From: a virus
Length of the DNA: 37,505 bases
IMG/VR virus record: IMGVR_UViG_3300007504_000030
Span: 1-37,505 of that record
Reading direction: 5' to 3' (one strand)
Positions within the stretch are counted from its first letter, which is position 1; every line of letters begins with the position of its first letter. The notes under the pieces were generated by a model. The model was not told the DNA's origin. It did not search any database and saw only the letters and a program-made list of their open reading frames with translations. Positions 1,048 to 28,687 of this stretch are shown piece by piece. Both the position numbers and the translations under genes were made by a program.

Positions 1048-1749
1048 TTATTTAGTTAGCATTTTAACAACGGTCTCTAAAGTCCACTCTGGTGTTTGAA
1101 ATTTAGCTTTCTTAACACCATTTAATATTTGATTGTCTGTGAATGGCACCAGTTGTTTGGCGGCCCTCAAATGTCTCTTCAGAGCTATTTGGTATTGATC
1201 TTTGGTTTGCAGATCTGGCTTTCTCTCCTCAAAGTACAAGGCAATAACGTTCATGTCTCTACGAACACTATCTTCTAACTTTTTGATTTCGTCCTTTAAA
1301 GAAAATGGTGCGGAGGTTTCCTCCGCTATATCTTTATTATCATTATTTACATTATTATCATTATTGTTTGTGTCCGCTTGCTGTCCGCTTGCTGTCCGCT
1401 TGCTGTTCCTTTTGTTGTCCTTTTCTTGATGCTCTTTCCAATTCACTATTGTAATTAAACGATATTTTGTTGTTTTTTGTTGTTCAATCTGATGTTCGTT
1501 TTCAAGCAATTTTAAAATTCTTTCTACTGTAGACGGTTTTATTCCAGTTTGCTTAGCCAAAGAGTTACGACCTGTTATGAGTTGCCCTTTCTTTACCATT
1601 ATTATAGAGTCGTTCCACATAAATTCTTTTGGTTCATGATTAGCTAATAATAATAGATGTATCCATAAATGAATATAGGTGGATTTTTTATAATATCCTT
1701 TTTCTTGTATTTTTCTATGTAGACTAATCCAACCCTGTTTTTCATTCAT
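1048..1749 (-). CDS. phage replication protein with helix-turn-helix (DnaD/O-like)
   Basis: The 233-aa protein starts WISLHRKIQEKGYYKKSTYIH, the typical opening of phage replisome-organiser proteins. It continues with a winged-helix segment (residues about 55-90: GRNSLAKQTGIKPSTVERILKLL, here split by the usual turn). A low-complexity Asn/Asp linker lies around residues 115-140, and a C-terminal helical part ends TPEWTLETVVKMLTK. This is the pattern of initiators that load a helicase at the origin. The linker is encoded by three 11-bp tandem repeats plus an AT-rich tract, which may itself be an origin. A TTGACA-N16-TATTAT promoter lies about 120 bases upstream. No Shine-Dalgarno; leader is A/T-rich. 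Confidence 0.8.
   Translation of the reverse strand: MNEKQGWISLHRKIQEKGYYKKSTYIHLWIHLLLLANHEPKEFMWNDSIIMVKKGQLITGRNSLAKQTGIKPSTVERILKLLENEHQIEQQKTTKYRLITIVNWKEHQEKDNKRNSKRTASGQQADTNNNDNNVNNDNKDIAEETSAPFSLKDEIKKLEDSVRRDMNVIALYFEERKPDLQTKDQYQIALKRHLRAAKQLVPFTDNQILNGVKKAKFQTPEWTLETVVKMLTK
1325..1370. other. AT-rich tract beside the iterons (candidate DNA-unwinding element)
   Basis: This stretch is built almost entirely of att/tta triplets and abuts the iteron block. In the protein it gives only an Asn/Asp/Val linker. An easily melted tract flush against iterons is what an origin needs; that role is inferred from layout. Confidence 0.45.
1371..1403. repeat. three tandem 11-bp iterons inside the replication gene
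   Basis: The unit tgtccgcttgc occurs three times head to tail without a mismatch. Eleven is not a multiple of three, so each copy is read in a different frame and codes for different residues; the repeat is therefore conserved as DNA rather than as protein. An almost pure A/T stretch (1325-1370) follows immediately. Iterons plus an AT-rich tract inside the initiator gene is the layout of the lambda O-gene origin. Confidence 0.75.
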
Positions 1750-1765
1750 AATACTTACACACTAA

Positions 1766-1858
1766 AATCAGCAACTATATGGATAAAGAGTTTTTGACGA
1801 CTCTGATAGTTGCTGATTGTAATATATAAATATTTTGTCGTCTTACTTTATCCATATA
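1766..1858. repeat. two overlapping, interleaved 13-bp inverted repeats
   Basis: Repeat A pairs 1766-1778 with 1806-1818; repeat B pairs 1776-1788 with 1846-1858; both are perfect over 13 bp. Inside B, gacgac (1796-1801) can also pair with gtcgtc (1837-1842). The left arms of A and B share three bases and the arms alternate, so in RNA the two hairpins exclude each other. They could instead be operator half-sites. They lie in the predicted leader of the replication operon. Confidence 0.6.
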
Positions 1859-1861
1859 AGA

Positions 1862-1889
1862 ATAATATCAAAGTAGAAATATTTGTCAA
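1862..1889 (-). promoter_or_regulatory. leftward sigma70-type promoter for the replication operon
   Basis: On the minus strand a perfect -35 TTGACA (1884-1889) is followed after 16 bases by TATTAT (1862-1867). Transcription would begin near 1855 and give a leader of about 105 nt that contains the interleaved inverted repeats before the replication gene starts at 1749. Confidence 0.6.
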
Positions 1890-1920
1890 ACAGAGTTATC
1901 AACATCTAAATTATCAACCA

Positions 1921-1951
1921 TTGACAAATAAAAAAGAATGTTTTTTATTAA
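1921..1951 (+). promoter_or_regulatory. rightward promoter candidate for early genes
   Basis: A perfect TTGACA (1921-1926) mirrors the leftward -35 box as a 10-bp inverted repeat. The best -10 candidates (TTTATT or TATTAA, 17-19 bases away) are weak, so the box is clear but the promoter call is only moderate. Confidence 0.35.
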
Positions 1952-1999
1952 TTTGAATAATAAAATATCGCTGTAAATATAGATATTTCAAGTACGCAC

Positions 2000-2008
2000 T
2001 TATCCACA
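2000..2008 (+). other. DnaA box
   Basis: TTATCCACA matches the bacterial DnaA consensus TTATNCACA exactly. Two one- or two-mismatch copies lie about 100 bases to the left (1896-1904, 1911-1919). A single perfect copy could be chance, but the cluster next to replication genes supports use of host DnaA. Confidence 0.4.
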
Positions 2009-2060
2009 CTTTTTTTAATATTTCCTTTACAAACTATCCATAAAAGGATACCATATAAAT

Positions 2061-2471
2061 ATGGGAAAAATTAAGATAAATAAATGTAATCGTTGTGGTT
2101 GGGAATGGATCCCAAGAAGTGTGGACCCACCAAAGAGATGTGCTGGTCCATCTTGCAGAAGTCCTTATTGGCAGACCACTCCAGTTGTATACGTGATACA
2201 GGGTTGGGGTGGAAAAGATTTATTCAAGATAGGTTGCACAAACAATCTATTGGGTCGGTATGGTTCAAGAAGTAAAATCGTAGCAACAATAAATGTTCCT
2301 AATAAAATAAATAAATATAATTTAGAAGAAGAGATGCATAAATTATTTTTAGGAAAAAGAGTTGGTCAAGCAGAAGTATTTAAATTGAGTAAAAAAGATT
2401 TATTAGTTATTAAGAAAATTGCAAAAGCGAAAGACCCAATGAAAGAATGTAAGGATTTTATTAAAAAGTAA
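2061..2471 (+). CDS. zinc-ribbon plus GIY-YIG/T5orf172-like nuclease domain protein
   Basis: The 136-aa product opens with a zinc-ribbon (Cys9, Cys12, Cys27, Cys32, with the CxxCGWEWIPRS pattern seen in phage DNA-binding proteins). It continues with a fold-typical segment at residues 43-62 (VYVIQGWGGKDLFKIGCTNN cut by the usual loop) and ends AEVFKLSKKDL. This matches the T5orf172/Mug113 branch of the GIY-YIG superfamily, in which YVI and KIG stand in for GIY and YIG. A nicking or DNA-binding role is expected; the exact substrate is unknown. It is the first gene of the rightward early block, and a large RNA helix follows it directly. Confidence 0.75.
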   Translation: MGKIKINKCNRCGWEWIPRSVDPPKRCAGPSCRSPYWQTTPVVYVIQGWGGKDLFKIGCTNNLLGRYGSRSKIVATINVPNKINKYNLEEEMHKLFLGKRVGQAEVFKLSKKDLLVIKKIAKAKDPMKECKDFIKK

Positions 2472-2477
2472 TTTGAC

Positions 2478-2642
2478 AATTTCATATATTACGATTTGCG
2501 GGGAAACTTTATCACTATACGACTGCTCGGTTTTGATTTCAGTTCCAATCACTGCTTAGCTACTCGTAGATAATCCTACATAAGTTGAACATTTTTTAAT
2601 ATGCAACAAGTAGAATCTCTGCAAATCGTAGTATGTGAAATT
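2478..2642 (+). ncRNA. long-helix RNA element 1 (27-bp stem, 111-nt loop)
   Basis: Bases 2478-2504 pair with 2616-2642 without a gap: 23 Watson-Crick pairs plus four wobbles (2485-2635, 2489-2631, 2500-2620, 2502-2618). All four are G-U only in plus-strand RNA; on the other strand they would be C-A mismatches. The loop holds weak hairpins (2534-2551, 2566-2579) and a repeated actgct. The right arm overlaps codons 6-14 of the next frame if that gene starts at 2601, but the element ends 9 bases before the alternative ATG at 2652. It may be a leader RNA or an RNase III substrate; no known family is recognised. Confidence 0.65.
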
Positions 2643-2795
2643 AAAAATAATATGCATTATGAAAATCAAATGTCTCGTTGGAAAAGAGACAAACAAGATA
2701 GAGTAATAGAATCAGTGCAACTCACACTACAGTGGCTTGTTGTGATAGGTCTTACAATAGGTTTGGTCGTATTATTCGTTAATTCAATTAAATAA
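2601..2795 (+). CDS. small single-pass membrane protein
   Basis: As read from 2601 the product is 64 aa. A charged N-terminal part (SRWKRDKQDR) is followed by one hydrophobic helix at residues 44-61 (WLVVIGLTIGLVVLFV), predicting a cytoplasmic N-terminus and an anchor at the C-terminus. An in-frame ATG at 2652 would give 47 aa. That start has the aaaaataatATG leader usual in this genome and lies just past the 27-bp RNA helix, so it may be the real one. No family is recognised. Next gene begins one base after the stop, so the two are coupled. Confidence 0.65.
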   Translation: MQQVESLQIVVCEIKNNMHYENQMSRWKRDKQDRVIESVQLTLQWLVVIGLTIGLVVLFVNSIK

Positions 2796-2796
2796 T

Positions 2797-3045
2797 ATGA
2801 GTCATCTAACATCAACAAAAGAATACTGTACAAGTTCACCTTACTGTGATGATGATAATTGTAGATGTGAAGATTATGAAAGAGAACAGAACATTAAACC
2901 AGGATTTGGAGATTATGTAATTCTTAAAACTGACGAGAAAGTAAGAGTAGTAGGTTTTGGTGGTACTGGAATAAGAAGAATAAATGTCGCTGATGGTTTT
3001 AACAACTGGTGGATTAATGAAAGTGAAATAAAGCATTATGTTTAA
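2797..3045 (+). CDS. hypothetical small protein with N-terminal cysteine cluster
   Basis: The 82-aa product has four cysteines within residues 11-24 (YCTSSPYCDDDNCRCED), which could bind a metal. The remainder is a short beta-rich stretch (GDYVILKTDEKVRVVGFGG) reminiscent of small SH3-like barrels, and it ends WWINESEIKHYV. Function is not recognised. Its last eight bases overlap the exonuclease gene, so it belongs to the same translational unit. Confidence 0.7.
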   Translation: MSHLTSTKEYCTSSPYCDDDNCRCEDYEREQNIKPGFGDYVILKTDEKVRVVGFGGTGIRRINVADGFNNWWINESEIKHYV

Positions 3046-3829
3046 ATTTAACGAAAAAACACATACATACACACTAGACGGCAAGAGAATGACGGGTGTA
3101 ACTACTGTCTTAGGGGTAATAAATAAACCAGCTTTAGTAGGTTGGGCAGCCAATCAAGCTGTGGAATATATTAAAACATCAAAAGTTTGGCAATTAGTTC
3201 CTGATACCCCAAGAAAGATAATGATTGGAGATAAAGAATTAGAGAAACTTCTTAATGAAGCTCGTAAAGCCCACATAAGAAAGAGAGACAAAGCAGGACA
3301 ATCTGGAACTGATGTGCATGGGGATATTGAAACACATATTAAATTCGCTATTGAAAATTCAGATGGAATAATTGTAACTGGAGGGAATTATGAGAAGAAA
3401 CAAGTTGAACATTTTCTTAATTGGGCAGAAAAAAACAAGATAAAGTTTCTTGCATCTGAAAAACGAGTATATTCTAAAACTCACTTCACAGCAGGGACTT
3501 ATGACTTCAAGTGCGAGATAGACGGAAAGATATATATAGGCGACATTAAGACAAGTTCAGGAATATATGACAGAACGCCATTTGCACAGACATCAGCTTA
3601 TCAGATGATGGAAGAAGAGATGACAGGAATTAAAGATGTACAAGGTCGGTTAATTATAAATTTAAAGAAAACAGGAATATTTGACGAAGATAAAGATGTT
3701 TATATCTCAGAGCATTACGAAGACGATTTAGAGTTGTTTATGTCAGCTTTGAGTATATATAGAATAATGAACAATAGGTTTGAACCAATGAACAATTATA
3801 AATCTAATAAAAAAACAATAAGAATATGA
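3038..3829 (+). CDS. PD-(D/E)XK (RecB/Cas4-like) exonuclease
   Basis: In this 263-aa protein the nuclease core is readable. GTDVHGDIE (residues 90-98) supplies a conserved His. Glu141, Asp156 in GTYDF, and Asp169-x-Lys171 in GDIKTS form the metal site, and FAQTSAYQMM (from 182) gives the QxxxY element of the RecB-type family. Such phage exonucleases resect DNA ends to feed single-strand annealing. The SSB-like and NinB-like genes downstream fit that recombination role. The gene overlaps both neighbours by a few bases, consistent with a tightly coupled operon. N-terminal residues 1-30 form the usual beta-rich leader (YTLDGKRMTGVTTVL). Confidence 0.88.
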   Translation: MFKFNEKTHTYTLDGKRMTGVTTVLGVINKPALVGWAANQAVEYIKTSKVWQLVPDTPRKIMIGDKELEKLLNEARKAHIRKRDKAGQSGTDVHGDIETHIKFAIENSDGIIVTGGNYEKKQVEHFLNWAEKNKIKFLASEKRVYSKTHFTAGTYDFKCEIDGKIYIGDIKTSSGIYDRTPFAQTSAYQMMEEEMTGIKDVQGRLIINLKKTGIFDEDKDVYISEHYEDDLELFMSALSIYRIMNNRFEPMNNYKSNKKTIRI

Positions 3830-4137
3830 AAAAAGAATTATTTGAAAATTATGCAGTTATAAAGAACAAGATTAAAGCATTAACTGCTGAAGCAAAGAAG
3901 ATTGAAGTTCAAGTTACAGCAGAGATGAATACTGAAGAAGTAGAGAAAGTAGAATCAGACTTTGGTACTTTCTTCTTCACTTCTCGCAAGTCTTGGACTT
4001 ATAGTGATGCAATCAAACCACTTGAAGAAGCTGTAAGCACAGCATCAAGTGAGTTGAAAGAAGCTCAGACAGAAGAGCAGAAGAATGGTACAGCAACAGC
4101 AGAAGAGAAGAAGTCGTTAACATTCAGAGGGAAATAA
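3826..4137 (+). CDS. coiled-coil protein of the recombination module
   Basis: The 103-aa product is mostly charged helix: residues 1-45 and 65-90 have Lys/Glu/Ala heptad-like spacing, separated by FGTFFFTSRKSWTYSD. This helix, beta-strand, helix layout recalls small phage proteins found next to exonuclease or RecT genes, some of them nuclease inhibitors of the Gam type, but no diagnostic motif is present, so no function is assigned. The start overlaps the exonuclease stop at ATGA (3826-3829), indicating coupled translation. Confidence 0.7.
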   Translation: MKKELFENYAVIKNKIKALTAEAKKIEVQVTAEMNTEEVEKVESDFGTFFFTSRKSWTYSDAIKPLEEAVSTASSELKEAQTEEQKNGTATAEEKKSLTFRGK

Positions 4138-4138
4138 T

Positions 4139-4309
4139 ATGGAAGAGAAAATAATAAAAAAGTTTAGAGAAAAGTTCCCTCATAAGTTATTTACTTTAGA
4201 GCAGTTAGAAGATATTAAAGTTCGCAATGAGAGAGACGGCAGTAACTTTCAACCATATCCTGCGAATGAAGAGATAGAAACATTTATTAAAAGTTTAATC
4301 AACAAATAA
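4139..4309 (+). CDS. hypothetical 56-aa protein
   Basis: A frame of 56 codons starts at ATG 4139 and ends TAA 4307-4309. It fills the gap between two clear genes, with one base before it and two after it. The product is charged and helical (MEEKIIKKFREKF) with a short polar end (ETFIKSLINK). The purine-rich agaggga 6 bases before the start might serve as a weak ribosome-binding site. Nothing about function can be said beyond membership of this operon. Confidence 0.65.
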   Translation: MEEKIIKKFREKFPHKLFTLEQLEDIKVRNERDGSNFQPYPANEEIETFIKSLINK

Positions 4310-4311
4310 TT

Positions 4312-4749
4312 ATGAAAATCACAAAAAAACTATCAACTGGTGGTACGGCATTCGCAAGAAAAATAGCTTACGAATACGAGAACAAACAATACGAAGCTGA
4401 TCTACAAAATGGCGATACTGTCAAAATCCTTGATGCAGGAAACGTAGAAGCAGGAACTTACGGAGATCAGCTCAACTTTAAAATTGAGACACGAAACGGA
4501 GAGAAAAAGATAAGTTTCAATCAAGCAACGCAGAACGTTCTACATGACGAGCTAGGAGAAGACAGCGAATCTTGGAAAGACAAAGAAGTACGAGTTATCT
4601 TGAAGAAAGATACTATTGCAGGAAAAAAAGTTATCATTGCTTATTTCGTAACAGGAGACTGGGAACTTGACGAGTACGGAGAGTTAACAAATCCTAACGA
4701 GATAAAAGCTGAAGACATTCCGTTTGATGCTGAAGAAGATCAAGGTTAA
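4312..4749 (+). CDS. single-stranded DNA-binding-like protein
   Basis: The 145-aa product is beta-rich through residue 115 and ends in a strongly acidic tail, EDIPFDAEEDQG. This resembles the DDDIPF tail by which SSB proteins contact partners. The core contains alternating strand patterns (KIETRNGEKKISF, VRVILKKDT, KKVIIAYFVTGDW) compatible with an OB fold. Together with the adjacent exonuclease and NinB-like genes this suggests an SSB for recombination or replication. The assignment rests on the tail and context; the core lacks a signature that would make it certain. Confidence 0.6.
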   Translation: MKITKKLSTGGTAFARKIAYEYENKQYEADLQNGDTVKILDAGNVEAGTYGDQLNFKIETRNGEKKISFNQATQNVLHDELGEDSESWKDKEVRVILKKDTIAGKKVIIAYFVTGDWELDEYGELTNPNEIKAEDIPFDAEEDQG

Positions 4750-4751
4750 AC

Positions 4752-5015
4752 ATGCTTCATAAAAGAGTAAAAACCATTTGGCACGGAGAAGTAGGAATAC
4801 ACGAAAAATATATCAATTCCTCTGGTGGTTTATTACTCAGCTATGTAGGAGACCAAGAAGCATACTTAGCACAGCAGATGTTCATTTCTGAAGAGGGGTT
4901 AGCTAAAGGAAGAAGAGGAAAAGAAACGTATAGAGATAGAAGTGATCCAACTAAATCGTATCAGTTAATTTACTTCAAATGGAAAGATGTTAAATTTCAA
5001 CCAAGTTTATTATGA
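4752..5015 (+). CDS. hypothetical protein, paralogue A of a duplicated pair
   Basis: The 87-aa product shares most of its length with the protein at 5685-5945: both contain HGEVGIHEKY, GRRGKETYRDR and DPTKxYQLIY in the same order. The conserved Arg/Lys/Glu block near residues 55-70 suggests nucleic-acid contact or a small enzyme core, but no known family is recognised. It ends overlapping the next start at ATGA. The pair frames a repeated gene order, paralogue A, one unrelated gene, then a QN-motif recombination gene. Confidence 0.75.
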   Translation: MLHKRVKTIWHGEVGIHEKYINSSGGLLLSYVGDQEAYLAQQMFISEEGLAKGRRGKETYRDRSDPTKSYQLIYFKWKDVKFQPSLL

Positions 5016-5326
5016 TAGAGACAAAAGACAGTATAGAAATAGACCTTAGAGAGATAAGAAAACAGATATCGGGAATCAATCCTAAACTGTCTTTGTATAA
5101 AAAACTGAAAGAAAAAGAAGAGATGTTAAAAGCTAAATTAGGTTATGGTTTACCAGATCCTTATAAAAGATGTAAAACAGAAGGATGTAAAAAGTTAGGA
5201 AAATCACGAGGTGGATATAAATGTCCTGATACAGGAAGAAATATTCCCAAAAGAGGGGATTACTGTGAAAAACATACCGCAGAGAATAGAGAACTTAATA
5301 CTAATCCAAATCAAAAAAAGTCATGA
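5012..5326 (+). CDS. putative zinc-binding protein with N-terminal coiled coil
   Basis: Residues 1-45 of this 104-aa protein form a charged helix (EIDLREIRKQ, KKLKEKEEMLKAKL). A cysteine/histidine region follows: CKTEGCKK near 54-61, then KCPDTG near 70 and YCEKHT near 84-89. The spacing is that of a small metal-binding module and the tail is basic and polar. No enzyme motif is visible. It overlaps both neighbours at ATGA junctions, so it is translated with the paralogue pair and the QN-motif genes. Confidence 0.68.
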   Translation: MIETKDSIEIDLREIRKQISGINPKLSLYKKLKEKEEMLKAKLGYGLPDPYKRCKTEGCKKLGKSRGGYKCPDTGRNIPKRGDYCEKHTAENRELNTNPNQKKS

Positions 5327-5691
5327 AATGCCCCCATTGCAAAAAAGAAACAGGTCAAAGAACATCAGCTCAGAATAGAGCTTTACATCTCTGGTTAAGT
5401 ATGAAAGCTAAACAATGTCGTGATGCAGGTATAAATCCACGACAAGTCTTAGAAAAGACTATTGAGCTTGAAATGACAGATGAACAGATGAAAGAGTTCT
5501 GGAGATCAGTACAAAAAGCTCTCTACAAAACTAAATCTACAAAAGAGCTATCTAAGCATGAACAGATTGAACAGATAGCAGAGCATCTTAATCGTTTCTT
5601 CGCAGAGAACTTTAACTTAGAGGGTGTAGAGTTTCCTGATATACATGCTGTTGGTGGTATGTGTGGGAAGAAGAGTTGTCCTAAGTGTTAA
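5323..5691 (+). CDS. NinB-like recombination protein with terminal zinc motifs
   Basis: The 122-aa protein carries the phage recombination-mediator pattern: RTSAQNRALHLWL near residues 13-25, KSTKELSKHEQ near 71-81, and a closing NLEGVEFP. These blocks are common to small phage proteins of the NinB/Orf type that act on recombination intermediates. CPHC at the start and GMCGKKSCPKC at the end could form a zinc site joining the termini. The protein at 6076 shares the QN block and likely the family. The stop overlaps the next gene, which must then begin with GTG. Confidence 0.6.
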   Translation: MKCPHCKKETGQRTSAQNRALHLWLSMKAKQCRDAGINPRQVLEKTIELEMTDEQMKEFWRSVQKALYKTKSTKELSKHEQIEQIAEHLNRFFAENFNLEGVEFPDIHAVGGMCGKKSCPKC

Positions 5692-5945
5692 ATAAAAACA
5701 TTAAAACTGTATATCATGGGGAAGTTGGCATACATGAAAAATATCTAGACTCTGGCGGTCTTATACTAAATTATGTAGGAGAACAAGAAGAATATGAGGG
5801 TGGACAAATGTTTTTAAATCAAGAGCAACTACAACAAGGTAGAAGAGGTAAAGAAACATACAGAGATAGACATGATCCAACTAAACAATATCAACTAATC
5901 TATTACAAGTGGACGGAGACTAAACATCAACCTACATTATTATGA
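5685..5945 (+). CDS. hypothetical protein, paralogue B of a duplicated pair (GTG start)
   Basis: The 86-aa product aligns end to end with the 4752-5015 protein (shared HGEVGIHEKY, GRRGKETYRDR, DPTKxYQLIYYKW). The only possible start that keeps the conserved N-terminus is GTG at 5685, which overlaps the previous stop by seven bases. Both copies are intact, so each is presumably used. Divergence is moderate, and the second copy uses more Gln and Glu. The function is unknown; the family appears to travel with recombination genes. Confidence 0.75.
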   Translation: MLNKNIKTVYHGEVGIHEKYLDSGGLILNYVGEQEEYEGGQMFLNQEQLQQGRRGKETYRDRHDPTKQYQLIYYKWTETKHQPTLL

Positions 5946-6079
5946 GAGCTATTATAGGAACACATTACAATACATTAGAGTTAGCCAAAAAAGCTTTAAA
6001 GTATAAACCCTTTAAGAGAAGTTTCAGAATAATGCAGTATGACAAAGGTTTTCTTTTAGTAAGTAAAAGACAATTATGA
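5942..6079 (+). CDS. hypothetical 45-aa protein
   Basis: This frame (ATG 5942, TGA 6077-6079) overlaps the previous stop and the next start at ATGA on both sides, a strong sign that it is translated. The product begins MRAIIGTHYNTLELAKKAL and ends FLLVSKRQL; it is basic, with a short amphipathic helix in the middle. No family is recognised. It occupies the slot taken by the zinc-binding gene in the first copy of the repeated gene order. Confidence 0.68.
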   Translation: MRAIIGTHYNTLELAKKALKYKPFKRSFRIMQYDKGFLLVSKRQL

Positions 6080-6597
6080 AGATAGATAAGAGTATACCAA
6101 CATATAAGTCAGTTCAACTTGCAGGTAAACTAACTGTACATAATGGAAGACTTGTAAAGATCTATAACTCCCCTGCATTGTTGCGACACTTCTTTAAAAC
6201 TCATTGTAAAGACGGAGATAGTTTTACGGAAACACTGACTAATAAGAAACCGAAGAGAAGTATTGAACAGAATAATTATTACTATCTATATTTAGATTTA
6301 ATTTCCTCATCATCAGGTCATTCAGTTGAAGAACTTGCATTGTGGGCGAAAGGTAAATTTCTTTCAAAAGGTATTACTGAAGTGTTTGGTGAAAAAACAA
6401 GAATAGTAAAAAGTTCTGCTGATTTAAACAGAGATGAATTTACAGAATTTCTTAATAGAATAGAAGATGTAACTGAAATACCATTACCAGACCCAAAACC
6501 TTTTAAACTTGGTTTACTATTAGATGAATATGGAAAATTAAAGATAGAACAGAAAAAAAAATATAGTAAAATGAAAGCCAAAGGATTACCTAAATAA
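6076..6597 (+). CDS. NinB-like phage recombination protein
   Basis: In this 173-aa protein the central block KRSIEQNNYYYLYLDLIS (about residues 58-75), then SSADLNRDEFTEFLNRIEDV, then a closing EIPLPDP match the layout of NinB-like phage proteins: QN motif, a Thr/Ser-x-x-Leu box before a helix, and a Pro-rich finish. These act in phage recombination. The N-terminal 55 residues are beta-rich and the last 30 are basic and helical (KIEQKKKYSKMKAKG). It appears distantly related to the protein at 5323-5691, which makes it the last member of a duplicated three-gene order. Confidence 0.62.
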   Translation: MKIDKSIPTYKSVQLAGKLTVHNGRLVKIYNSPALLRHFFKTHCKDGDSFTETLTNKKPKRSIEQNNYYYLYLDLISSSSGHSVEELALWAKGKFLSKGITEVFGEKTRIVKSSADLNRDEFTEFLNRIEDVTEIPLPDPKPFKLGLLLDEYGKLKIEQKKKYSKMKAKGLPK

Positions 6598-6599
6598 AC

Positions 6600-6878
6600 A
6601 TGAAAAGAGCATTTAAAATCATTGGAATAATTGTTGTAGTGATATTATGGTTGATATGGATATATTTAATGATTACACCATTTAAAACACAAGCTTCAGA
6701 AAGATTTGTCGGTTGTGCTATAGATTTATGTCCCAAAGGAATACAAGAATGGCATTTTAAGAATGGTGGAATGTGGGGGTGTGCTTCATATGTGAAAGAC
6801 AGTAAAGAGTATTGGCGATGCTATTGTAATGGTGCTTTAGATTGGCCAGATAGCTTAAATTATTTAAAATGTAATTGA
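6600..6878 (+). CDS. secreted or membrane-anchored Cys-rich protein
   Basis: The 92-aa product has a basic start (MKRAFK), a hydrophobic helix at residues 7-26 (IIGIIVVVILWLIWIYLMI) and a possible signal-peptidase site after TQA near residue 33. The exported part has six to seven cysteines (VGCAIDLCPKG, WGCASY, RCYCNG, LKCN), a spacing that suggests disulfides outside the cytoplasm. Early-transcribed, exported phage proteins of this size often change the host surface or block superinfection; that role is inference. No family is recognised. Confidence 0.7.
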   Translation: MKRAFKIIGIIVVVILWLIWIYLMITPFKTQASERFVGCAIDLCPKGIQEWHFKNGGMWGCASYVKDSKEYWRCYCNGALDWPDSLNYLKCN

Positions 6879-7135
6879 TGAAAATAATAAAGATAATAAA
6901 AAAATATGTAATATATCCTATTGCTAATTATATTACATATAAAATTATTGATACATCTAAAAAACATTACAGAGATTATACAGATGAAGAGCATGATAAA
7001 TATTGGGACAGAGAAATTAAAATTACAGCAAAAGAATTATGGGATGTTAAACTTCAAAAATTTAGAAAGAGGGTGGATGTCAACACCTATTTAGGTGCAA
7101 TGGAATTTGTTAAGTATATAATAAAAGATAAGTAG
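6878..7135 (+). CDS. hypothetical basic protein
   Basis: The 85-aa product starts at ATG 6878, which shares one base with the previous stop (TGATG); a TTG one codon earlier is less likely. The N-terminal 25 residues are basic and moderately hydrophobic (KIIKIIKKYVIYPIANYITYKI) and may associate with membranes. The rest is charged (DYTDEEHDKYWDREIKITAKELWD). Its stop codon lies inside the left arm of the 25-bp RNA helix that follows. Function unknown. Confidence 0.68.
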   Translation: MKIIKIIKKYVIYPIANYITYKIIDTSKKHYRDYTDEEHDKYWDREIKITAKELWDVKLQKFRKRVDVNTYLGAMEFVKYIIKDK

Positions 7136-7290
7136 TTCTTTGTAAGTAGAGAGGGTCATAAAAAAATAATGCATATAAAAAATTTAAATTTTGTTGATTA
7201 ATACTCAACCTGTTCTTTCTCTCCTATTCCCACTCATACCTACAAGAAGACTCCACCCATCCTCTCTACTTACAGGGAATTACCCTGTAA
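7132..7290 (+). ncRNA. long-helix RNA element 2 with a competing hairpin
   Basis: Bases 7132-7156 pair with 7259-7283 over 25 consecutive positions; 14 of them (7141-7154 with 7261-7274) are perfect, and the four wobbles (7135-7280, 7139-7276, 7140-7275, 7155-7260) are G-U only in plus-strand RNA. The palindrome 7270-7290 (TTACAGGG, aatta loop, CCCTGTAA) uses the same right-arm bases, so the long helix and the short hairpin exclude each other. The loop contains a GTTGA/TCAAC hairpin and a pyrimidine-rich run. It is the leader of the Shine-Dalgarno cassette that begins at 7330. Confidence 0.6.
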
Positions 7291-7329
7291 TAGTTCTTTG
7301 ATAATTTAATATGAAAGGAGGTAAATCAA

Positions 7330-7500
7330 ATGATTCTACAAGTTCAGTATCTATGCAGTTGTGGTAGATACATGGAAAACGATGTTTGGAAAGATTCAGA
7401 TATTTTGAAGAAGTTGTATTTTTATCGTTTGAGTAAGCTTAATCCACCCTTTAAGAAAATACAGGGTGAGTTGTGTGATAAATGTCGTGAACGTTTATAA
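7330..7500 (+). CDS. small zinc-finger-like protein
   Basis: A 56-codon frame starts at ATG 7330 behind a near-perfect Shine-Dalgarno (AAAGGAGG, 7314-7321). CSCG near residues 9-12 and CDKC near 51-54 form a likely two-knuckle zinc site. Between them is a basic, aromatic helix region (LKKLYFYRLSKL). Too short for a confident family; small CxC/CxxC phage proteins usually bind nucleic acid or host factors. It is the first gene of a five- to six-gene cassette whose ribosome-binding sites are far stronger than elsewhere in the window. Confidence 0.7.
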   Translation: MILQVQYLCSCGRYMENDVWKDSDILKKLYFYRLSKLNPPFKKIQGELCDKCRERL

Positions 7501-7512
7501 AAGGAGATTATT

Positions 7513-7731
7513 ATGAGTCGCCCAAGATTTTGTAAAAAGTGTAAAAGAGGTGATAAGGGCGACGGAGTATGGGTAAAACCATTTCTTTGGAAGCATGATA
7601 ATTTTTTAAGGCAAACAGTCGCCAATATCAAAAAGTATGGAGAAATACAAAAACTTGAAATGTGTAAAGTTTGTATTTCAGAAATTAAAGAACAAGGACA
7701 TATTGTCAGAAAGGATGGAAAGAAATTATGA
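7513..7731 (+). CDS. small zinc-finger-like protein
   Basis: The 72-aa product contains CKKCKRGDKGDG near residues 7-18 and MCKVCISEIKEQGH near 50-63, a C-x2-C plus C-x2-C layout with a possible His ligand. The middle is basic and aromatic (WVKPFLWKHDNFLRQ). The start is preceded by AAAGGAG at a good distance. Its stop overlaps the next start at ATGA. Similar in plan to the gene at 7330, so the two may be an old duplication; no function is recognised. Confidence 0.72.
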   Translation: MSRPRFCKKCKRGDKGDGVWVKPFLWKHDNFLRQTVANIKKYGEIQKLEMCKVCISEIKEQGHIVRKDGKKL

Positions 7732-8165
7732 AGAAATTATGGTTAGTTGTTCTGTTTGTACTTGTGCCAATATCAATGACAATAAGTTCAGTGATAGCGG
7801 AACAAAGATTAAGATTCGTTGTACCACAACATATAAAGGATAAATATTTAATAAATATTGACCCAGATAAAAACCTTTATGCTTTACCTGCAATACCTGT
7901 ACAAGATTGTAGAATCACTATGTATATAGTTGCCTTTATGACAAAAGAACATTGTGATTTATATAATCCAAAAGACAGGTCTAATATGAAAGAAGAATGG
8001 GTAATGGCAGAAGGAATTTGTTGTGGTTGTTCTAATCATACACCAACTAATAGATTGTTATGCTTTAGGGTTAGAATAGATGGAAAATGGAAGGTTGTAT
8101 ATACGAAAGAGCATCCAGAAGTGAAGAAGAAAAAAGAATTACCACTGCCTAAACATATGGCGTGA
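7728..8165 (+). CDS. secreted protein with signal peptide
   Basis: The 145-aa product has a textbook signal peptide: MKK, hydrophobic core LWLVVLFVLVPISMTISSV, and a likely cleavage site after VIA at residue 24. The mature part has cysteines in DCRITMY, EHCDLY and GICCGCSN plus LLCFRV, possibly forming disulfides or a metal site, and a basic Lys-rich tail (EVKKKKELPLPKH). No family is recognised. Together with the gene at 6600 this is the second exported Cys-containing protein in the rightward block, suggesting work at the cell envelope early in infection. Confidence 0.75.
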   Translation: MKKLWLVVLFVLVPISMTISSVIAEQRLRFVVPQHIKDKYLINIDPDKNLYALPAIPVQDCRITMYIVAFMTKEHCDLYNPKDRSNMKEEWVMAEGICCGCSNHTPTNRLLCFRVRIDGKWKVVYTKEHPEVKKKKELPLPKHMA

Positions 8166-8175
8166 GGAGGATGAT

Positions 8176-8391
8176 ATGAACAATAAAGAGAAGAAAGAAT
8201 TTGATGAAAGTTTTGGTAAGTCATTTATTGTTGGTCATATTTCACTTATTTGTGGTAGATGTGAAATTCCTTTAGAGTCAACAAATTTTAGAGGGAATTA
8301 CAAAAGTAATTCAACAACTTGCTACGGATGTAATAAAACTTTCTATTACACAGTCGGAGAGGAGGAAGATAATGAAGAAGAAAAAGATTGA
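8176..8391 (+). CDS. zinc-ribbon-like small protein
   Basis: The 71-aa product has ICGRCEIP near residues 25-32 and TCYGCNKTF near 48-56, the C-x2-C plus C-x2-C spacing of a zinc ribbon. The tail is strongly acidic (GEEEDNEEEKD). A full GAGGAGG Shine-Dalgarno precedes the start. The acidic tail is encoded by the purine-rich DNA that also serves as the ribosome-binding site of the phosphoesterase gene, which overlaps it by 20 bases. Confidence 0.75.
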   Translation: MNNKEKKEFDESFGKSFIVGHISLICGRCEIPLESTNFRGNYKSNSTTCYGCNKTFYYTVGEEEDNEEEKD

Positions 8392-9196
8392 CGAGTTTAA
8401 AGAAAAGAACGAAGGAAAAGATAGAATCATTGGAAGACCTATAAGACTAAATAGACACAGATTAGAACCAAACAGAGAAGGATGTGCAGAACTTATTTTT
8501 GTTGGTGACGTACACTTAGGTTATCCAACAAGTAATATTGAGAAAGTTCAAGCAATGTTAAGTTATGCTTTAAAAACAGGTACTTATGTTATATGCATGG
8601 GTGACTGGATTGAAGCAGGCCTTAAAGATAGTATTGGTGATAGTGTTTATCGTCAAAAGTTGAATCCACAAGAACAAATGGAAAGAGTATTAGAAATGTT
8701 AGAACCGCTTGCGAAGAAAAAATTAATACTCGGGATGCATGAAGGAAACCATGAGATGAGAATTTCCAAACTTACAGGAATAGACATTACTAAAGTGATG
8801 GCTCGTATGTTAGATGTTCGTTATCTTGGTTACTCTTGTTGGAGTTTGTTCACAGTAGACCATATTAGATATTCTCTCTACTCAACACATGGAACGTCAG
8901 GAAGTATTATGGAACACACCAAATTGAATAGTGTTGTAAAATTAGGGAAAATAGTCTCTGCTGATGTTGTCGCTTATGGTCACACACACGGATTAGCTTC
9001 AGATGTAATCACACGTCAATACTATGACGGAACAAAGAATAAAGTTGTTGAAGATAAACAGTATGTTGTTTTAACTGGTTCTTATCTGGAGTGGGATGAC
9101 AGTTATGCTCAAATGAAAAACTACCCAATCTCAAAAGTAGGAAGTCCAAAGATTAAATTATTTTCTGATAAGAAAGATGTACATTTTAGTATATGA
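8372..9196 (+). CDS. calcineurin-like metallophosphoesterase
   Basis: All five blocks of the two-metal phosphoesterase fold are present in this 274-aa protein: GDVHLG (45-50), GDW (77-79), GNHE (125-128), a His in STHGT (173) and GHTH (203-206). The family hydrolyses phosphomono- or diesters, from nucleotides to DNA ends; the MGDW and HEGNHE context is closest to small phage and bacterial phosphodiesterases. In phages such enzymes are often tied to DNA repair (SbcD-like) or nucleotide metabolism. No partner ATPase gene is visible here, so an SbcCD complex cannot be claimed. A strong GGAGGA site precedes the start. Confidence 0.9.
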   Translation: MKKKKIDEFKEKNEGKDRIIGRPIRLNRHRLEPNREGCAELIFVGDVHLGYPTSNIEKVQAMLSYALKTGTYVICMGDWIEAGLKDSIGDSVYRQKLNPQEQMERVLEMLEPLAKKKLILGMHEGNHEMRISKLTGIDITKVMARMLDVRYLGYSCWSLFTVDHIRYSLYSTHGTSGSIMEHTKLNSVVKLGKIVSADVVAYGHTHGLASDVITRQYYDGTKNKVVEDKQYVVLTGSYLEWDDSYAQMKNYPISKVGSPKIKLFSDKKDVHFSI

Positions 9197-9206
9197 GGAG
9201 GAAGTT

Positions 9207-9368
9207 ATGAATGAAGACCATCGTCTTAATATGATTTATTGGAGATATCATCAAGGTAGAACATCTGAAAATGTTGGAGGATATCAAGAAGTTTTTGTAG
9301 AAGACAAAAAAGAGACTAAAGACAAAGACCCTCCTTGTAAATGTAAGTCCTGCAAGTGCGATAAATAG
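9207..9368 (+). CDS. small protein with C-terminal Cys/Lys cluster
   Basis: The start at ATG 9207 is chosen because GAGGAGG lies seven bases upstream and because earlier in-frame codons overlap the phosphoesterase gene. The 53-aa product is polar and ends PPCKCKSCKCDK, a compact four-cysteine knuckle likely to hold a metal. It is the last gene before the convergent terminator. Function not recognised. Confidence 0.72.
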   Translation: MNEDHRLNMIYWRYHQGRTSENVGGYQEVFVEDKKETKDKDPPCKCKSCKCDK

Positions 9369-9385
9369 GAACTTCGCTAACAGGC

Positions 9386-9415
9386 AAAAACCCCTGCTAT
9401 TACAGAGGGGTTTTT
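9386..9415. terminator. bidirectional intrinsic terminator between convergent blocks
   Basis: AAAAACCCCT (9386-9395) pairs with AGGGGTTTTT (9406-9415), with seven T on the plus strand and five on the minus strand. It ends the rightward early block and can also stop leftward late transcripts. Confidence 0.85.
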
Positions 9416-9456
9416 TTATAGATGTTTTCCTCCACCTTAGATTTATATTGTAACAG

Positions 9457-9477
9457 AAAAAGCTTCAAAAAAGAAGC
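9457..9477 (-). terminator. weak leftward terminator behind the lysis genes
   Basis: On the minus strand GCTTC and GAAGC form a short hairpin with a T-rich loop, followed by five T. The stem is only five or six base pairs, so strength is doubtful, but it lies just after the last leftward gene. Confidence 0.45.
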
Positions 9478-9514
9478 CTCCTCTATTAGTATGGCAGTCA
9501 GAATACTGTCATTT

Positions 9515-9540
9515 TGCCCGAATTAACGGGCAGTTTTATT
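9515..9540 (+). terminator. hairpin TGCCCG/CGGGCA with T-rich tail
   Basis: Six base pairs around an AATTAA loop are followed by GTTTTATTT on the plus strand. It could be a second stop for rightward transcription reading into the lysis genes, or a stabilising hairpin at the 3' end of the leftward holin message. Confidence 0.45.
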
Positions 9541-9742
9541 TACCTGATTTAACTTTAATAAAGTTGTGAGCCCATTTCAAAGTCCCTGTAACTGTAAGAC
9601 CTGCAATCAAAGGAAACAAATGTGTTTCTATCAAAACAGTAAGTTCAACATCTGCAAATTGAGTAACAGCTACAACGGCTATCGCTACAGTAACTACTGC
9701 ACCAAGAGCTTTTAAAATACCTTTTTTCAGTGAATATGTCAT
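9536..9742 (-). CDS. putative holin (two membrane segments)
   Basis: The 68-aa product has two hydrophobic stretches: residues 11-27 (LKALGAVVTVAIAVVAV) and about 36-55 (VLIETHLFPLIAGLTVTGTL). A basic start and a basic tail (NFIKVKSGK) fit a small class II-type holin that forms the lethal hole in the inner membrane. Holins vary too much for a sequence signature, so the call rests on topology and on its position directly after the endolysin gene, 20 bases away on the same strand. Confidence 0.6.
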   Translation of the reverse strand: MTYSLKKGILKALGAVVTVAIAVVAVTQFADVELTVLIETHLFPLIAGLTVTGTLKWAHNFIKVKSGK

Positions 9743-9762
9743 AGTATTATAAAATTTAACTA

Positions 9763-10266
9763 TTAAGACGACCTAGTAAAATATGACTTTAGCTCTCTCC
9801 AGTGTACATTAAGAGGGCGATATTGTACATGAGCCACATCTCTAAACTTCCAATCTCCGCCCCATTCTAACCCTAATTTCTTGGCTTCTACGCCTAGTAT
9901 ATCCCACCATCCTGATGGCGGATTCCAGCCATATCTTTTAAATATTAAATCTGCGGCCAATCCATACTGATGATAACTCTGTCCTTCTTTCGCTTGCGTT
10001 ATGATCTTTCCTGTTTTAGTTCTTCCTTTAGCATAATAAGCTTTCTGTGTTTTAAAGGAACGAAAACCCTCTGAAAGTATAATAGGTTTTTTCAATACTT
10101 TCATTCGTTTTATTAGATGTTCTACTTTAGTTTTAAAATCTGGAAACAAAGCATCTATTCCTTCATCTTCATATATATAAGATTGTGCTAACTTTTGAGC
10201 AATAAAATTTCTCTTAGCATTATTTTGATTACCTAATATTAATGCTTGAAATAATTGTTTCCACAT
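9763..10266 (-). CDS. M15-family peptidoglycan endopeptidase (endolysin)
   Basis: The 167-aa enzyme has the M15/VanY zinc site: His99 and Asp106 in SYHQYGLAADL and His146 in DVAHVQ. It also has the EGFRS arginine loop near residue 69 and the WGGDW turn near 135-139. This matches the L-alanyl-D-glutamate peptidases such as the T5 lysin and CwlK, which cut the peptide stem of peptidoglycan from inside. A helical N-terminal 45 residues precede the domain; no clear signal peptide, so a holin would be needed. I start at ATG 10266 rather than the TTG nine bases upstream because a small gene ends there. Confidence 0.9.
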   Translation of the reverse strand: MWKQLFQALILGNQNNAKRNFIAQKLAQSYIYEDEGIDALFPDFKTKVEHLIKRMKVLKKPIILSEGFRSFKTQKAYYAKGRTKTGKIITQAKEGQSYHQYGLAADLIFKRYGWNPPSGWWDILGVEAKKLGLEWGGDWKFRDVAHVQYRPLNVHWRELKSYFTRSS

Positions 10267-20073: not shown

Positions 20074-21177
20074 TTATCCACAATTAAGAGTTAGTAAATT
20101 AGGTGTCGGAGTTACTGCTACTTCACCGTGAGTTACAGTTAATTTAGGTTCTTGTGTACCATTATCAGCCGCTTTCCATCTTACAAGTATATATTGTCCG
20201 CTTCCTAACCCAGGGTCGCTATCTAAATAGTCATGTCCTTCCCACTGTCCAAGACGTGTTCTTCCTCCCGTGCCTTTTCCGATAAATCCTATACCTGTAG
20301 CATTAAACGGAAAAGGTGTATATGTACCAGTTGAAATACCTGATATATCTTCTCTATCACCACTATCAATCGCTTCCGTTGCACCTGCTTGGTCAAAATC
20401 ACCAGTCGCAAGAGTGTTATCATTTGCAGGACTTGACTGTGTTATTGTCACGAAATCGTTACCGTCATTTGCAAAACTAGAATCAGCACTTGAAAAATCT
20501 AAACTAAGAGTAGCCGCACTAATTGTTTCTCCTGAACCTATTGCTGATGTATCAAAGAGAATAAAACCTCTTACAATAAGAATATTACTACCAATCATTT
20601 CAATCTCACCTCTTTCTACTGTACTACCAGTACTAGTTCCAGTTCCACTTGCCGCATCATGAACAGTTGACCAAGTTGAAGAACCAGGATTATTTAAAAC
20701 TCTTCCATCAACAGGGTCATTTGCTCCTGTGGCAGGATAAAAATCAGTTATGGTATTTCCTATCTTACCTTTTTTAATTTTAGTATTTTCTTTTCCTACC
20801 AAAGTTACAGTGTGTGCAATAGAATCACGAGTAGCTTCTGCTAAATCTTCTTTTAGATTATCTACTACTGTTTCTCTACCTCTTTCATCTGTTTCAATTC
20901 TTGTAGTACCATCTAGCACTTGATAAAGTGGATTAATAATTCTAAATCTTTCTATCTCAACACTCCCATCTTCTCCAAAACCTAATTGTTTATTGCCTTT
21001 CCAAGCTTTTGCAAGAACTTGTACACCACCTTTAATAGCTTCTATGCTTTGAATATCAATTTTTATTCCGTACTTTTGACTGATGTATTCTCCACGAAAA
21101 TCTATCTTAGCAATTTCTCGCCCTTTAATATTAGCTATTTCTTTAGCATCTTTGTTTTTTAATAGATTTTTAATCAT
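20074..21177 (-). CDS. virion protein with carbohydrate-binding-like beta domain
   Basis: The 367-aa protein has a charged N-terminal region (1-120). A beta-rich part follows at about 140-350 with the line ILIVRGFILFDTSAIGSGET followed by ISAATLSL, which matches DNRLRE/CBM-like jelly-roll domains that decorate secreted and virion proteins. It ends with EPKLTVTHGEV, the usual last strand of such a domain. Placed among two paralogous fibre-like proteins, it probably forms part of a receptor-binding or decoration structure. Which host glycan it binds is unknown. Confidence 0.6.
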   Translation of the reverse strand: MIKNLLKNKDAKEIANIKGREIAKIDFRGEYISQKYGIKIDIQSIEAIKGGVQVLAKAWKGNKQLGFGEDGSVEIERFRIINPLYQVLDGTTRIETDERGRETVVDNLKEDLAEATRDSIAHTVTLVGKENTKIKKGKIGNTITDFYPATGANDPVDGRVLNNPGSSTWSTVHDAASGTGTSTGSTVERGEIEMIGSNILIVRGFILFDTSAIGSGETISAATLSLDFSSADSSFANDGNDFVTITQSSPANDNTLATGDFDQAGATEAIDSGDREDISGISTGTYTPFPFNATGIGFIGKGTGGRTRLGQWEGHDYLDSDPGLGSGQYILVRWKAADNGTQEPKLTVTHGEVAVTPTPNLLTLNCG

Positions 21178-21179
21178 TG

Positions 21180-22835
21180 TTAGACTTCTTTAGAGAATAG
21201 AGCTGTTACAGCATAGGTAGTGTTTGAATGGTCTGAAGCGTTATTATCTACCTGCCATGTAGCATCTGCGTGGTCTTGTGGAATTGTTGCTCCTCCTAAT
21301 GCTAAACCTGCTGTTGAATCTGCTGGAACTCTCAATGTTCCTTGAACTGTACCTGATGTTGTCTGTGTAATATCAAGTGTAATTGCTACATCTGACTCGT
21401 TAGCCGCCATTAGATACACCAAGTCATGGAATACACCACTAGATCCTGCAAGTAATGTCTTTGGACCCTCACTATCTGCTGTAACATAAGCTGTTTGAAG
21501 CAGATCTCTTACTTGTACTGGTCTTACAACTTGTCGTCCTGTATCGTCATAAGTTGCTGAAACCATGTCACCTGCCCCTACTGCTGTTGGGTTTGCTGTT
21601 CTAGCAATACCACCTACTTTAACTGGATTAGAACCAACATCTGCTGTATCTGAAGGAATTGGACCCTCTACTGCTGTAGAAGTCAAGCCACCTGATACTG
21701 TTACAGATCCGTCTACTGTGATTGAGTTTCCACCATCTTGAATATTTACTGCTGAACCACCTGATGCGTTATCAACAGTTACATTGTGTCCATCTGCGAG
21801 CTGATTTGCTGAAGTTGCTAAACCTATTGAATTAGCTGTAACATCTACATCTTGTGTCCCACTTGGTGTGGATGTAACTGTACCTGTAACTGGTACAGGG
21901 TTTGAACCTGAATATTGAACACCTGTTGAATCCACTAGTGACGCCGCTATTGAATTTGTCACACCTGTAACCGTTGTGACTGTTGTGACTGTATCAATCG
22001 TTCCTGAATTAACTACTGTTGATAACTCTGTACCACTAACTTGATTAATATCTAAGTGTGCGGCCCTAAGTTCTGCATCTGTTAATCCTGAACCACCTGT
22101 TTCTACAGACACTCTCATTCGGTTATCTGCATTAAATACACTATCCACAGCCGTTGAACCAAATGCATCATATACATTTACAGAAGCAACTGAATCTGTT
22201 GCTTGTGTAACTCTCAATGTATCCGAGTTTACAACACCTGTGTCAGTTTCTGCTATAAGTGTTGCAGAGAGATTACCTGTAATCTTCAAAGCTCCCTCTA
22301 CTTGATCTATAAGTGAAGATGCTGATGCTCTAATATCGCTAATCTTAACGATTTTAGAACCACCTGCACTTCCACCACCACTGATAGAAGTTATATTTTC
22401 TATTAAATTGACTGGATTTCCGTCTTTATCTCTAATCTGAACAGGTAACGGATTACCCAAATCTATACCCATGAGACTCACGAAACCTCTCACATTCATT
22501 TCATCGGGCATGATAACATCAGGCACTCTGATAGGTGGGACTGTTACGTGTGCCCTTGGTTCAGGCACTTTAATCTCTGGTATCTTTATTTCGGGAACTG
22601 TCACATGTGACGGTGCCCCCTCTACTGTGATTTGTGATAAAGCACTAAGTAGCTCTGTTTTATCTACATGTGCTGTCTCACGAATCTCTTTCAAGAATGG
22701 CTTAAACATTCTTGCCACTTCTGCGGCGACAGAAGATACAATATTTGAGCGGTCTCGCTTAAATTCATTGTTTATCATCTTCCCTCGTGCATTGTTGATA
22801 GCATTTTTTGCTATGTTTAAATCTTCGTTTGCCAT
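21180..22835 (-). CDS. fibre-like virion protein with VP-E/K repeat stalk
   Basis: In the 551-aa product residues 1-65 form a helical anchor, residues 70-112 a repeat of alternating Val/Ile with Pro (VTVPEIKIPEIKVPEPR), then MPDEM and a long Ser/Thr/Val-rich beta region with SGG and TV repeats. It shares the anchor, repeat and VIMPDEMNV boundary with the protein at 22875, so the two arose by duplication. The plan, anchor then beta-prism-like stalk then variable head, suggests a trimeric fibre or capsid decoration. No enzymatic pocket is visible. It starts after a short non-coding gap. Confidence 0.62.
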   Translation of the reverse strand: MANEDLNIAKNAINNARGKMINNEFKRDRSNIVSSVAAEVARMFKPFLKEIRETAHVDKTELLSALSQITVEGAPSHVTVPEIKIPEIKVPEPRAHVTVPPIRVPDVIMPDEMNVRGFVSLMGIDLGNPLPVQIRDKDGNPVNLIENITSISGGGSAGGSKIVKISDIRASASSLIDQVEGALKITGNLSATLIAETDTGVVNSDTLRVTQATDSVASVNVYDAFGSTAVDSVFNADNRMRVSVETGGSGLTDAELRAAHLDINQVSGTELSTVVNSGTIDTVTTVTTVTGVTNSIAASLVDSTGVQYSGSNPVPVTGTVTSTPSGTQDVDVTANSIGLATSANQLADGHNVTVDNASGGSAVNIQDGGNSITVDGSVTVSGGLTSTAVEGPIPSDTADVGSNPVKVGGIARTANPTAVGAGDMVSATYDDTGRQVVRPVQVRDLLQTAYVTADSEGPKTLLAGSSGVFHDLVYLMAANESDVAITLDITQTTSGTVQGTLRVPADSTAGLALGGATIPQDHADATWQVDNNASDHSNTTYAVTALFSKEV

Positions 22836-26050: not shown

Positions 26051-26080
26051 AGTGTACTACACACTAGGTTCTTTTGTCAA
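26051..26080 (-). promoter_or_regulatory. leftward late promoter (TTGACA-18-TACACT)
   Basis: Perfect TTGACA at 26075-26080, 18-base spacer, TACACT at 26051-26056. It lies in the last codons of the acetyltransferase gene, serves the portal unit, and is followed by CCTAACCCTAAC and the terminator, the same composite as at 19682-19774. Confidence 0.75.
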
Positions 26081-26410
26081 GAGCTTTGCTGGATTACCCA
26101 CAACTGTTGTGCATCTTTCTACATCTTTTGTAACAACTGCACCTGCTCCTATGACACAACCCTCTTTTAAAGTAACTCCTGGTAGTATTGTTGTGTTAGC
26201 ACCTATAACAACATTATCCTCTACTACTGTTGACATCCAGTGCTTACCTTTAGATGGTGGATGCTTATCGTTTGCAAAGCAAACATGAGGTCCTATAAAC
26301 ACATTATTCCCTATCAACACCCCATTAGGAATGAATACAAACTCTTGATAGTTCACATTCTCTCCCATTTTCACATCATCTCCTATGTATACAAACTGTC
26401 TCTTTTTCAT
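26057..26410 (-). CDS. hexapeptide-repeat sugar N-acetyltransferase
   Basis: The 117-aa protein is a left-handed beta-helix: isoleucine/valine hexads (VLIGNNVFIGPHV, VVIGANTTILPGV, CVIGAGAVVTKDV) with the catalytic-type His in FANDKHPPSK and the closing VVGNPAKLL. It is closest in plan to WlbB/WbpD-type acetyltransferases that acetylate a UDP-amino-uronic acid. It is separated from the surface-sugar cluster by the terminase genes, but would supply a missing step there. It overlaps the gene at 26407 by four bases. Confidence 0.82.
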   Translation of the reverse strand: MKKRQFVYIGDDVKMGENVNYQEFVFIPNGVLIGNNVFIGPHVCFANDKHPPSKGKHWMSTVVEDNVVIGANTTILPGVTLKEGCVIGAGAVVTKDVERCTTVVGNPAKLLTKEPSV

Positions 26411-28408: not shown

Positions 28409-28687
28409 TATAGTTCACTAAATCTATAAGGCGTGATGACTACTATTCTTCTTGTTATATGTCCTACGTTTCTATAATCAACCGATTAAGATCAATTATT
28501 TTCTTCGTCTAAAAATATACCCTATCAATGTGTCGCCACACGATCTTATAAGCCAGATATATTCAAGGTAATTAGAATATTGAAAGCTCGCACTCGTACA
28601 ATTATGGGAAGTTCTAAGTTCACTATTGCATAATTGCTCATCTAAGACTCTCGTCTAAACTACACCTTATAGATTTAATGAACTATA
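28409..28687 (-). ncRNA. multi-helix structured RNA upstream of the terminase genes
   Basis: In leftward RNA a 23-bp closing stem (28665-28687 with 28409-28431) has a single irregular position that is U-G on this strand and C-A on the other. Inside are an AGAC/GTCT stem with a GAGA (GNRA) loop (28645-28656), an 8-bp stem (28629-28636 with 28599-28606), a 6-bp stem (28575-28580 with 28559-28564), GTGT/ACAC (28530-28541) and a 10-bp stem with three wobbles (28490-28499 with 28474-28483). It has no reading frame of note and fills a 308-base gene-free gap. A packaging RNA, a pac element or a novel phage RNA are all possible. Confidence 0.6.

Follow-up and report, generated by a model that had tools for sequence, protein, structure and literature searches.

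The boundary between two gene blocks of this uncultured phage carries a long RNA helix whose 3' end doubles as part of a perfect hairpin, and the computed folds indicate that this element (E2) is a real RNA structure. The window, by which we mean the whole stretch of 37,505 bases analyzed, is an IMG/VR phage record whose genes include those for a terminase, an endolysin, an exonuclease and a NinB-like protein. E2 is probably an undescribed regulatory RNA, and a regulatory leader appeared to be its likeliest role. Our specific proposal, which we hold only tentatively, is that 7132-7306 would act in cis as a sense-strand RNA leader that gates the early operon (2061-7135) into a downstream cassette (7330-9368), by the mechanism described below. 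The relevant features are as follows.

6875-7135, plus strand: last gene upstream of E2, whose UAG stop (7133-7135) lies inside the E2 5' arm
7132-7156, plus strand: 5' arm of the 25-pair E2 helix (outer part 7132-7145, inner part 7146-7156)
7204-7273, plus strand: rut-like tract, C-rich, G-poor and mostly unpaired, more extreme than any other 70 nt of the window, both strands included
7259-7283, plus strand: 3' arm of the E2 helix
7270-7290, plus strand: hairpin TTACAGGG-AATTA-CCCTGTAA, which excludes the outer 14 helix pairs and is present again in a related phage, G085
7293-7306, plus strand: boxA-like GTTCTTTGATAATT, of which 7294-7299 can pair with the Shine-Dalgarno region at 7314-7319
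7314-7332, plus strand: Shine-Dalgarno AAAGGAGG and ATG of the first cassette gene
7330-9368, plus strand: cassette comprising six small genes, of which five have a clear Shine-Dalgarno, with a strong terminator following it at about 9390

With regard to structure, the original prediction had given the coordinates of both the 25-bp helix and the perfect hairpin correctly. The helix runs through its 25 pairs without interruption, four of them being G-U, and the fold of 7120-7300 (-38.4 kcal/mol, z -3.9) was equaled by none of 200 shuffles; the RNA enclosed by the helix, about 100 nt, folds at only -2.7 kcal/mol. The hairpin has 8 bp and an AAUUA loop, and among the seven perfect 8-bp hairpins of the window it is the only one with at least four G-C pairs. 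A scan for uninterrupted helices (G-U allowed, arms within 300 nt) returned only three of at least 18 pairs in the window, namely E1 (27 pairs), E2 (25) and E3 (26), and the longest helix in 20 shuffles of the plus strand had 18 pairs. All three lie at gene boundaries in the transcribed sense, none was found in the other sense, and each of their ten wobbles is a G-U pair when read in the direction of transcription. In both E2 and E3, the 5' arm takes in the UAG that ends the preceding gene, and E1 begins 6 nt past a stop. Since helices of at least 20 pairs with a loop of at least 30 occurred very roughly once per 100 kb in 2.2 Mb of fetched loci outside this phage and a relative, G011, the phage is enriched in such helices. 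No Rfam covariance model matched E2 at the gathering score, only sub-threshold chance matches being returned, which bears out the earlier statement that no known riboswitch aptamer is recognizable; a riboswitch identity was rejected on this ground. A repressor operator was also rejected, as the window has no second good site.

Three further structured elements were found in the window:

2478-2642, plus strand: E1, 27-pair closing helix and structured interior (fold z -7.4), ending 9 nt 5' of a likely ATG at 2652
28409-28687, minus strand: E3, 26-pair closing helix and structured interior (fold z -4.9), with the upstream UAG in its 5' arm
1750-1834, minus strand: E4, long hairpin of 29 columns with one mismatch, directly 5' of the ATG of the gene at 1048-1749

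Neither E1 nor E3 had a credible match in Rfam, and the near-identical contigs L006-L008, which span E3 only, carry no change within it and thus gave no covariation information. G011, G080 and G085 also have noncoding RNAs with strong structure and long closing helices; large ones lie at 1413-1790 of G011 (L183; z -8.2) and at 20835-21166 of G080 (L209/L301; z -11.1). The scanned parts of the structured RNAs in these three phages matched nothing in Rfam except tRNA, and L183 and L301 had no match. In G011 (terminase 78%), which has Shine-Dalgarno genes of its own, a CxxC-rich Shine-Dalgarno gene directly follows a 20-pair hairpin, and a boxA-like GCTCATTGAAAAAG lies just before that hairpin. 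In two distant phages, hairpins of 23-24 pairs (L009, 7223-7278; L011, 9043-9096) have the common loop TACGGTCGATTA and lie 3' of a likely capsid gene; their stems have diverged yet are still complementary, and this hairpin is a candidate conserved RNA element.

The original prediction had also held that only one of the two E2 folds can form at a time. This was true for the outer 14 pairs (7132-7145 with 7270-7283), the only ones with which the hairpin clashes, whereas the inner pairs (7146-7156 with 7259-7269) are compatible with it and can coexist. The computed energies were -45.7 kcal/mol for the helix state versus -38.6 kcal/mol for the hairpin state, forcing the hairpin thus costing 7 kcal/mol, and the free RNA was 99.7% helix and 0.1% hairpin in silico; when folding of the growing transcript was computed, the helix appeared once its 3' arm had been made. 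Blocking 7115-7142 or more, as a ribosome at the UAG would do, raised the hairpin from 0.1% to 99.9% in silico, and the inner helix survived blocks reaching up to about 7148. The stop codon in the 5' arm, whose occupation flips the computed fold, had been overlooked in the original prediction. Judging by toeprints, a ribosome with the UAG in its A site would cover the RNA to about 7145-7146, and the coincidence of this predicted edge with the end of the hairpin-exclusive pairs is suggestive but no proof. A short ORF at 7169-7201 was considered as a leader peptide and rejected, as the helix is unaffected by a ribosome that starts at this ORF.

The switch logic originally proposed therefore stood in part: the exclusive pair of folds is present and recurs in G085 with compensatory changes, but the free RNA strongly favors the helix. 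The Shine-Dalgarno of the first cassette gene pairs with 7294-7299, to about the same extent in either state. The hairpin is a poor intrinsic terminator, with a score of -14.5 versus +21.6 for the strong terminator past the cassette and with T runs never longer than 3. These results do not support a simple switch, whether translational or of the attenuator type: the states are unbalanced, the Shine-Dalgarno is about equally paired and the hairpin is a weak terminator. Antisense pairing of the loop with the Shine-Dalgarno regions of the cassette was rejected as well, the energies being mostly within those of shuffles.

Searches with flanking proteins and with DNA found no relative containing the E2 locus in IMG/VR or among GenBank phages. 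A scan with the capsid protein revealed a family of related phages, including a distant member, G085 (IMGVR_UViG_3300022225_000838), whose capsid protein is 54% identical to that of the window. G085 carries a 21-pair helix at 22319-22431; CAGAGAAUUAC forms its end and CAGAG-AAUUA-CUCUG overlaps it, the counterparts in the window being CAGGGAAUUAC and CAGGG-AAUUA-CCCUG. In 3.46 Mb of loci, no further site was found where a closing helix of at least 13 pairs carries an AATTA-loop hairpin at its end. The hairpin motif alone occurred in 34 IMG/VR stretches, among which G085 and an identical contig were the only ones with the closing helix (21 pairs), the remainder having at most 10 pairs, like shuffles; palindrome-only and hairpin-motif matches in IMG/VR, mostly due to chance and without a closing helix, were rejected as homologues.

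Between the window and G085, 8 of the 21 helix pairs show compensatory changes, 5 show one-sided changes and 8 are identical. All eight identical pairs fall within the outer 11, the part doubly used with the hairpin (Fisher p 0.001), and such conservation is as predicted for a two-state element. In the hairpin, two of six pairs are compensatory, and 13 of the 15 bases of the motif, including the AAUUA loop, are the same, whereas the sequences of the inner helix and of the interior have drifted apart. Covariance in relatives, which the original prediction had named as a check, was thus observed for both folds, G085 being the sole independent comparison. The G085 element is not located upstream of a Shine-Dalgarno cassette, and a block on its arm raised the hairpin to at most 21% in silico; the flip seen in the window was not reproduced, which counts against a switch. 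In a third phage, G087, a hairpin of different sequence straddles a 24-pair helix, and this case alone means little, because some straddling hairpin of at least 5 bp accompanies about 9% of long helices. Overall, the recurrence of the exclusive helix and hairpin with compensation appears to support a functional two-state element.

The host of the phage is probably one of the Patescibacteria, since its terminase relatives largely fall in such bins. The top of the list of terminase relatives from genome collections consisted largely of Patescibacteria bins, with matches in Shapirobacteria (53%), Patescibacteria UBA924 (49%) and Paceibacterota (45%), and the two nearest relatives came from a groundwater MAG without taxonomic placement (73%) and from a bin carrying the label Pacearchaeota (58%). 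A Bacteroidota host, our first guess from the boxA-like sequence, was dropped in view of these relatives. In one Patescibacteria class, the anti-Shine-Dalgarno of 16S rRNA was intact in each of the 20 rRNA genes inspected. E2 had rightly been placed between a block of genes lacking ribosome-binding sites and a block with strong ones: a Shine-Dalgarno is clear in five of the six cassette genes (weak at gene 7728) and present in almost no window gene outside the cassette, 26057-26410 being an exception. Shine-Dalgarno genes are clustered in both the window (7330-9368) and G011 (40021-41519, minus strand), where their products are CxxC-rich and secreted-looking small proteins, and the remaining genes of both phages mostly lack such sites. 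A perfect TATAAT without a -35 match lies at 7117-7122, 10 nt 5' of the E2 helix, and a transcript start at the base of this helix is possible. A divergent control region lies at 1750-2060 of the window; it contains the inverted repeats TATATGGATAAAG/CTTTATCCATATA and, on the minus strand at 1889-1862, a good sigma-70-like promoter.

Nus/Rho control and RNase III cleavage appeared to be the likeliest outputs of E2, judging from its sequence. Nus/Rho control is suggested because the rut-like tract and the best boxA match flank the hairpin. C minus G reaches 26 in 7204-7273, the highest value in the window. The boxA core G[CT]TCTTTGA was found within 300 nt in 6 of 20 16S leaders of one Patescibacteria class (0.085 expected), and a matrix was built from 8 sites found in the 16S leaders of that class. 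Position 7293-7306 gave the best match in the window (score 16.3; 6 of 60 whole-window shuffles were as good), and twelve bases of this site, TCTTTGATAATT, are identical in one Patescibacteria 16S leader. The boxA part is the weakest of the output argument, because no high-scoring boxA was found just before a start in the other members of the phage family. Each of the three Patescibacteria genomes searched (G018, G019 and G020) has genes for NusB and RNase III, lying at most a few hundred bases apart, and Rho was found in two of the three and not in the third.

The proposed mechanism is as follows. In the ground state, the nascent RNA would adopt the 25-pair helix, a duplex of the length cut by RNase III. 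A ribosome on the upstream UAG, with its front edge at about 7145-7146, would cover the outer arm and leave 7270-7283 free, so that the hairpin could form and the inner 11 pairs would stay. The output would be exerted through control of transcription and processing, via the rut-like tract, the boxA-like site and RNase III cleavage, and not through masking of the Shine-Dalgarno by the arms. We infer that the ribosome would be the input, and Nus factors, Rho or RNase III the carriers of the output. A terminating ribosome is transient, which counts against a ribosome-gated switch.

Comparison with known systems showed that E2 fits the full definition of none of the families tested, and it may be a new combination that functions as known leader RNAs do. 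The phage lambda N leader comprises nutL and an RNase III hairpin; in common with E2, it has a Nus-type signal and an RNase III-type helix between the promoter or upstream gene and a Shine-Dalgarno gene in an early phage operon, but the order of elements and the host differ, and neither boxB nor an N homologue was identified in the E2 phage. In attenuators of the trp and tna type, the position of a ribosome selects between exclusive RNA folds, as it would in our proposal for E2, whereas in E2 the ribosome would sit on a stop codon that ends an ordinary gene upstream, and the second fold makes an inefficient intrinsic terminator. The closest documented precedent for the output signals of E2 is the suhB 5' UTR of enterobacteria (Enterobacteriaceae), where boxA and rut govern translation and Rho termination (PMC5725501). 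Both leaders have a boxA-like site and a pyrimidine-rich, G-poor tract shortly 5' of the Shine-Dalgarno; however, the description of suhB includes no 25-pair helix overlapped by a hairpin, and the boxA of E2 is a sequence match only, in a phage, and not seen in relatives. The pre-16S rRNA leader also combines a boxA with a long helix that encloses a stretch of RNA, the leader-trailer helix of 25-40 bp being a substrate of the RNase III type (PMC10250234). In contrast, E2 encloses about 100 nt of unstructured RNA instead of rRNA, its boxA follows the enclosed stretch instead of preceding it, and it has an overlapping hairpin.

Several other explanations were weighed against the regulatory leader. 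It is possible, if rather unlikely, that the helix is an RNase III processing (or stabilizing) site separating the early mRNA from the cassette mRNA, the hairpin protecting an end or being incidental, with no switch involved. The helices of 25-27 pairs at three gene boundaries, which are within the length range of RNase III-cut pre-rRNA helices (PMC10250234), the occurrence of RNase III in three of three Patescibacteria genomes, the 99.7% helix at equilibrium and the lack of a flip in G085 (at most 21% hairpin) are all consistent with this; however, it leaves unexplained both the conservation of the helix part that overlaps the hairpin and the hairpin covariation in G085. A DNA inverted repeat or mobile-element remnant with no RNA function is very improbable, as every wobble is a G-U when read in the direction of transcription, the opposite sense has no helix of 18 or more pairs and the pairing is maintained in G085 by compensatory changes, even though the failure to find a locus-level homologue would fit such an origin.

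The other two explanations concern the hairpin. CAGRGAAUUACYCUG could be the RNA recognition site of some protein, the long helix merely displaying or hiding it, and the identity of 13 of 15 bases, AAUUA loop included, next to a diverged inner helix and interior would agree with this. Yet the motif lacks a closing helix in 32 of the 34 IMG/VR stretches containing it and is thus not specific to a system of this kind, and no protein is known to bind it; this explanation is unlikely. Less probable still is classical attenuation, with the hairpin as intrinsic terminator and the helix as antiterminator: the hairpin excludes the helix, is followed by TAGTTCTTTG and is one of five terminator-like matches in 1700-9900, but its score is far below that of the terminator past the cassette, and it lacks the T run of an efficient terminator.

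Returning to the regulatory leader, its helix, hairpin, stop codon and boxA-like site are each separately testable in a plasmid reporter. A wider, more doubtful generalization is that two-state cis-RNAs of an undescribed class occur in phages of Patescibacteria: a long closing helix would start from the stop codon of a gene, its 3' end would double as a hairpin, and translating one gene block would determine how the next is expressed, the sister elements with structured interiors forming a set of undescribed phage RNAs. E2 points to several more structured phage RNAs that belong to no family. If true, our proposal would mean that phages of a bacterial radiation with few cultured members use a regulatory RNA, one that couples translation of a block of genes lacking ribosome-binding sites to the expression of a block with strong ones.
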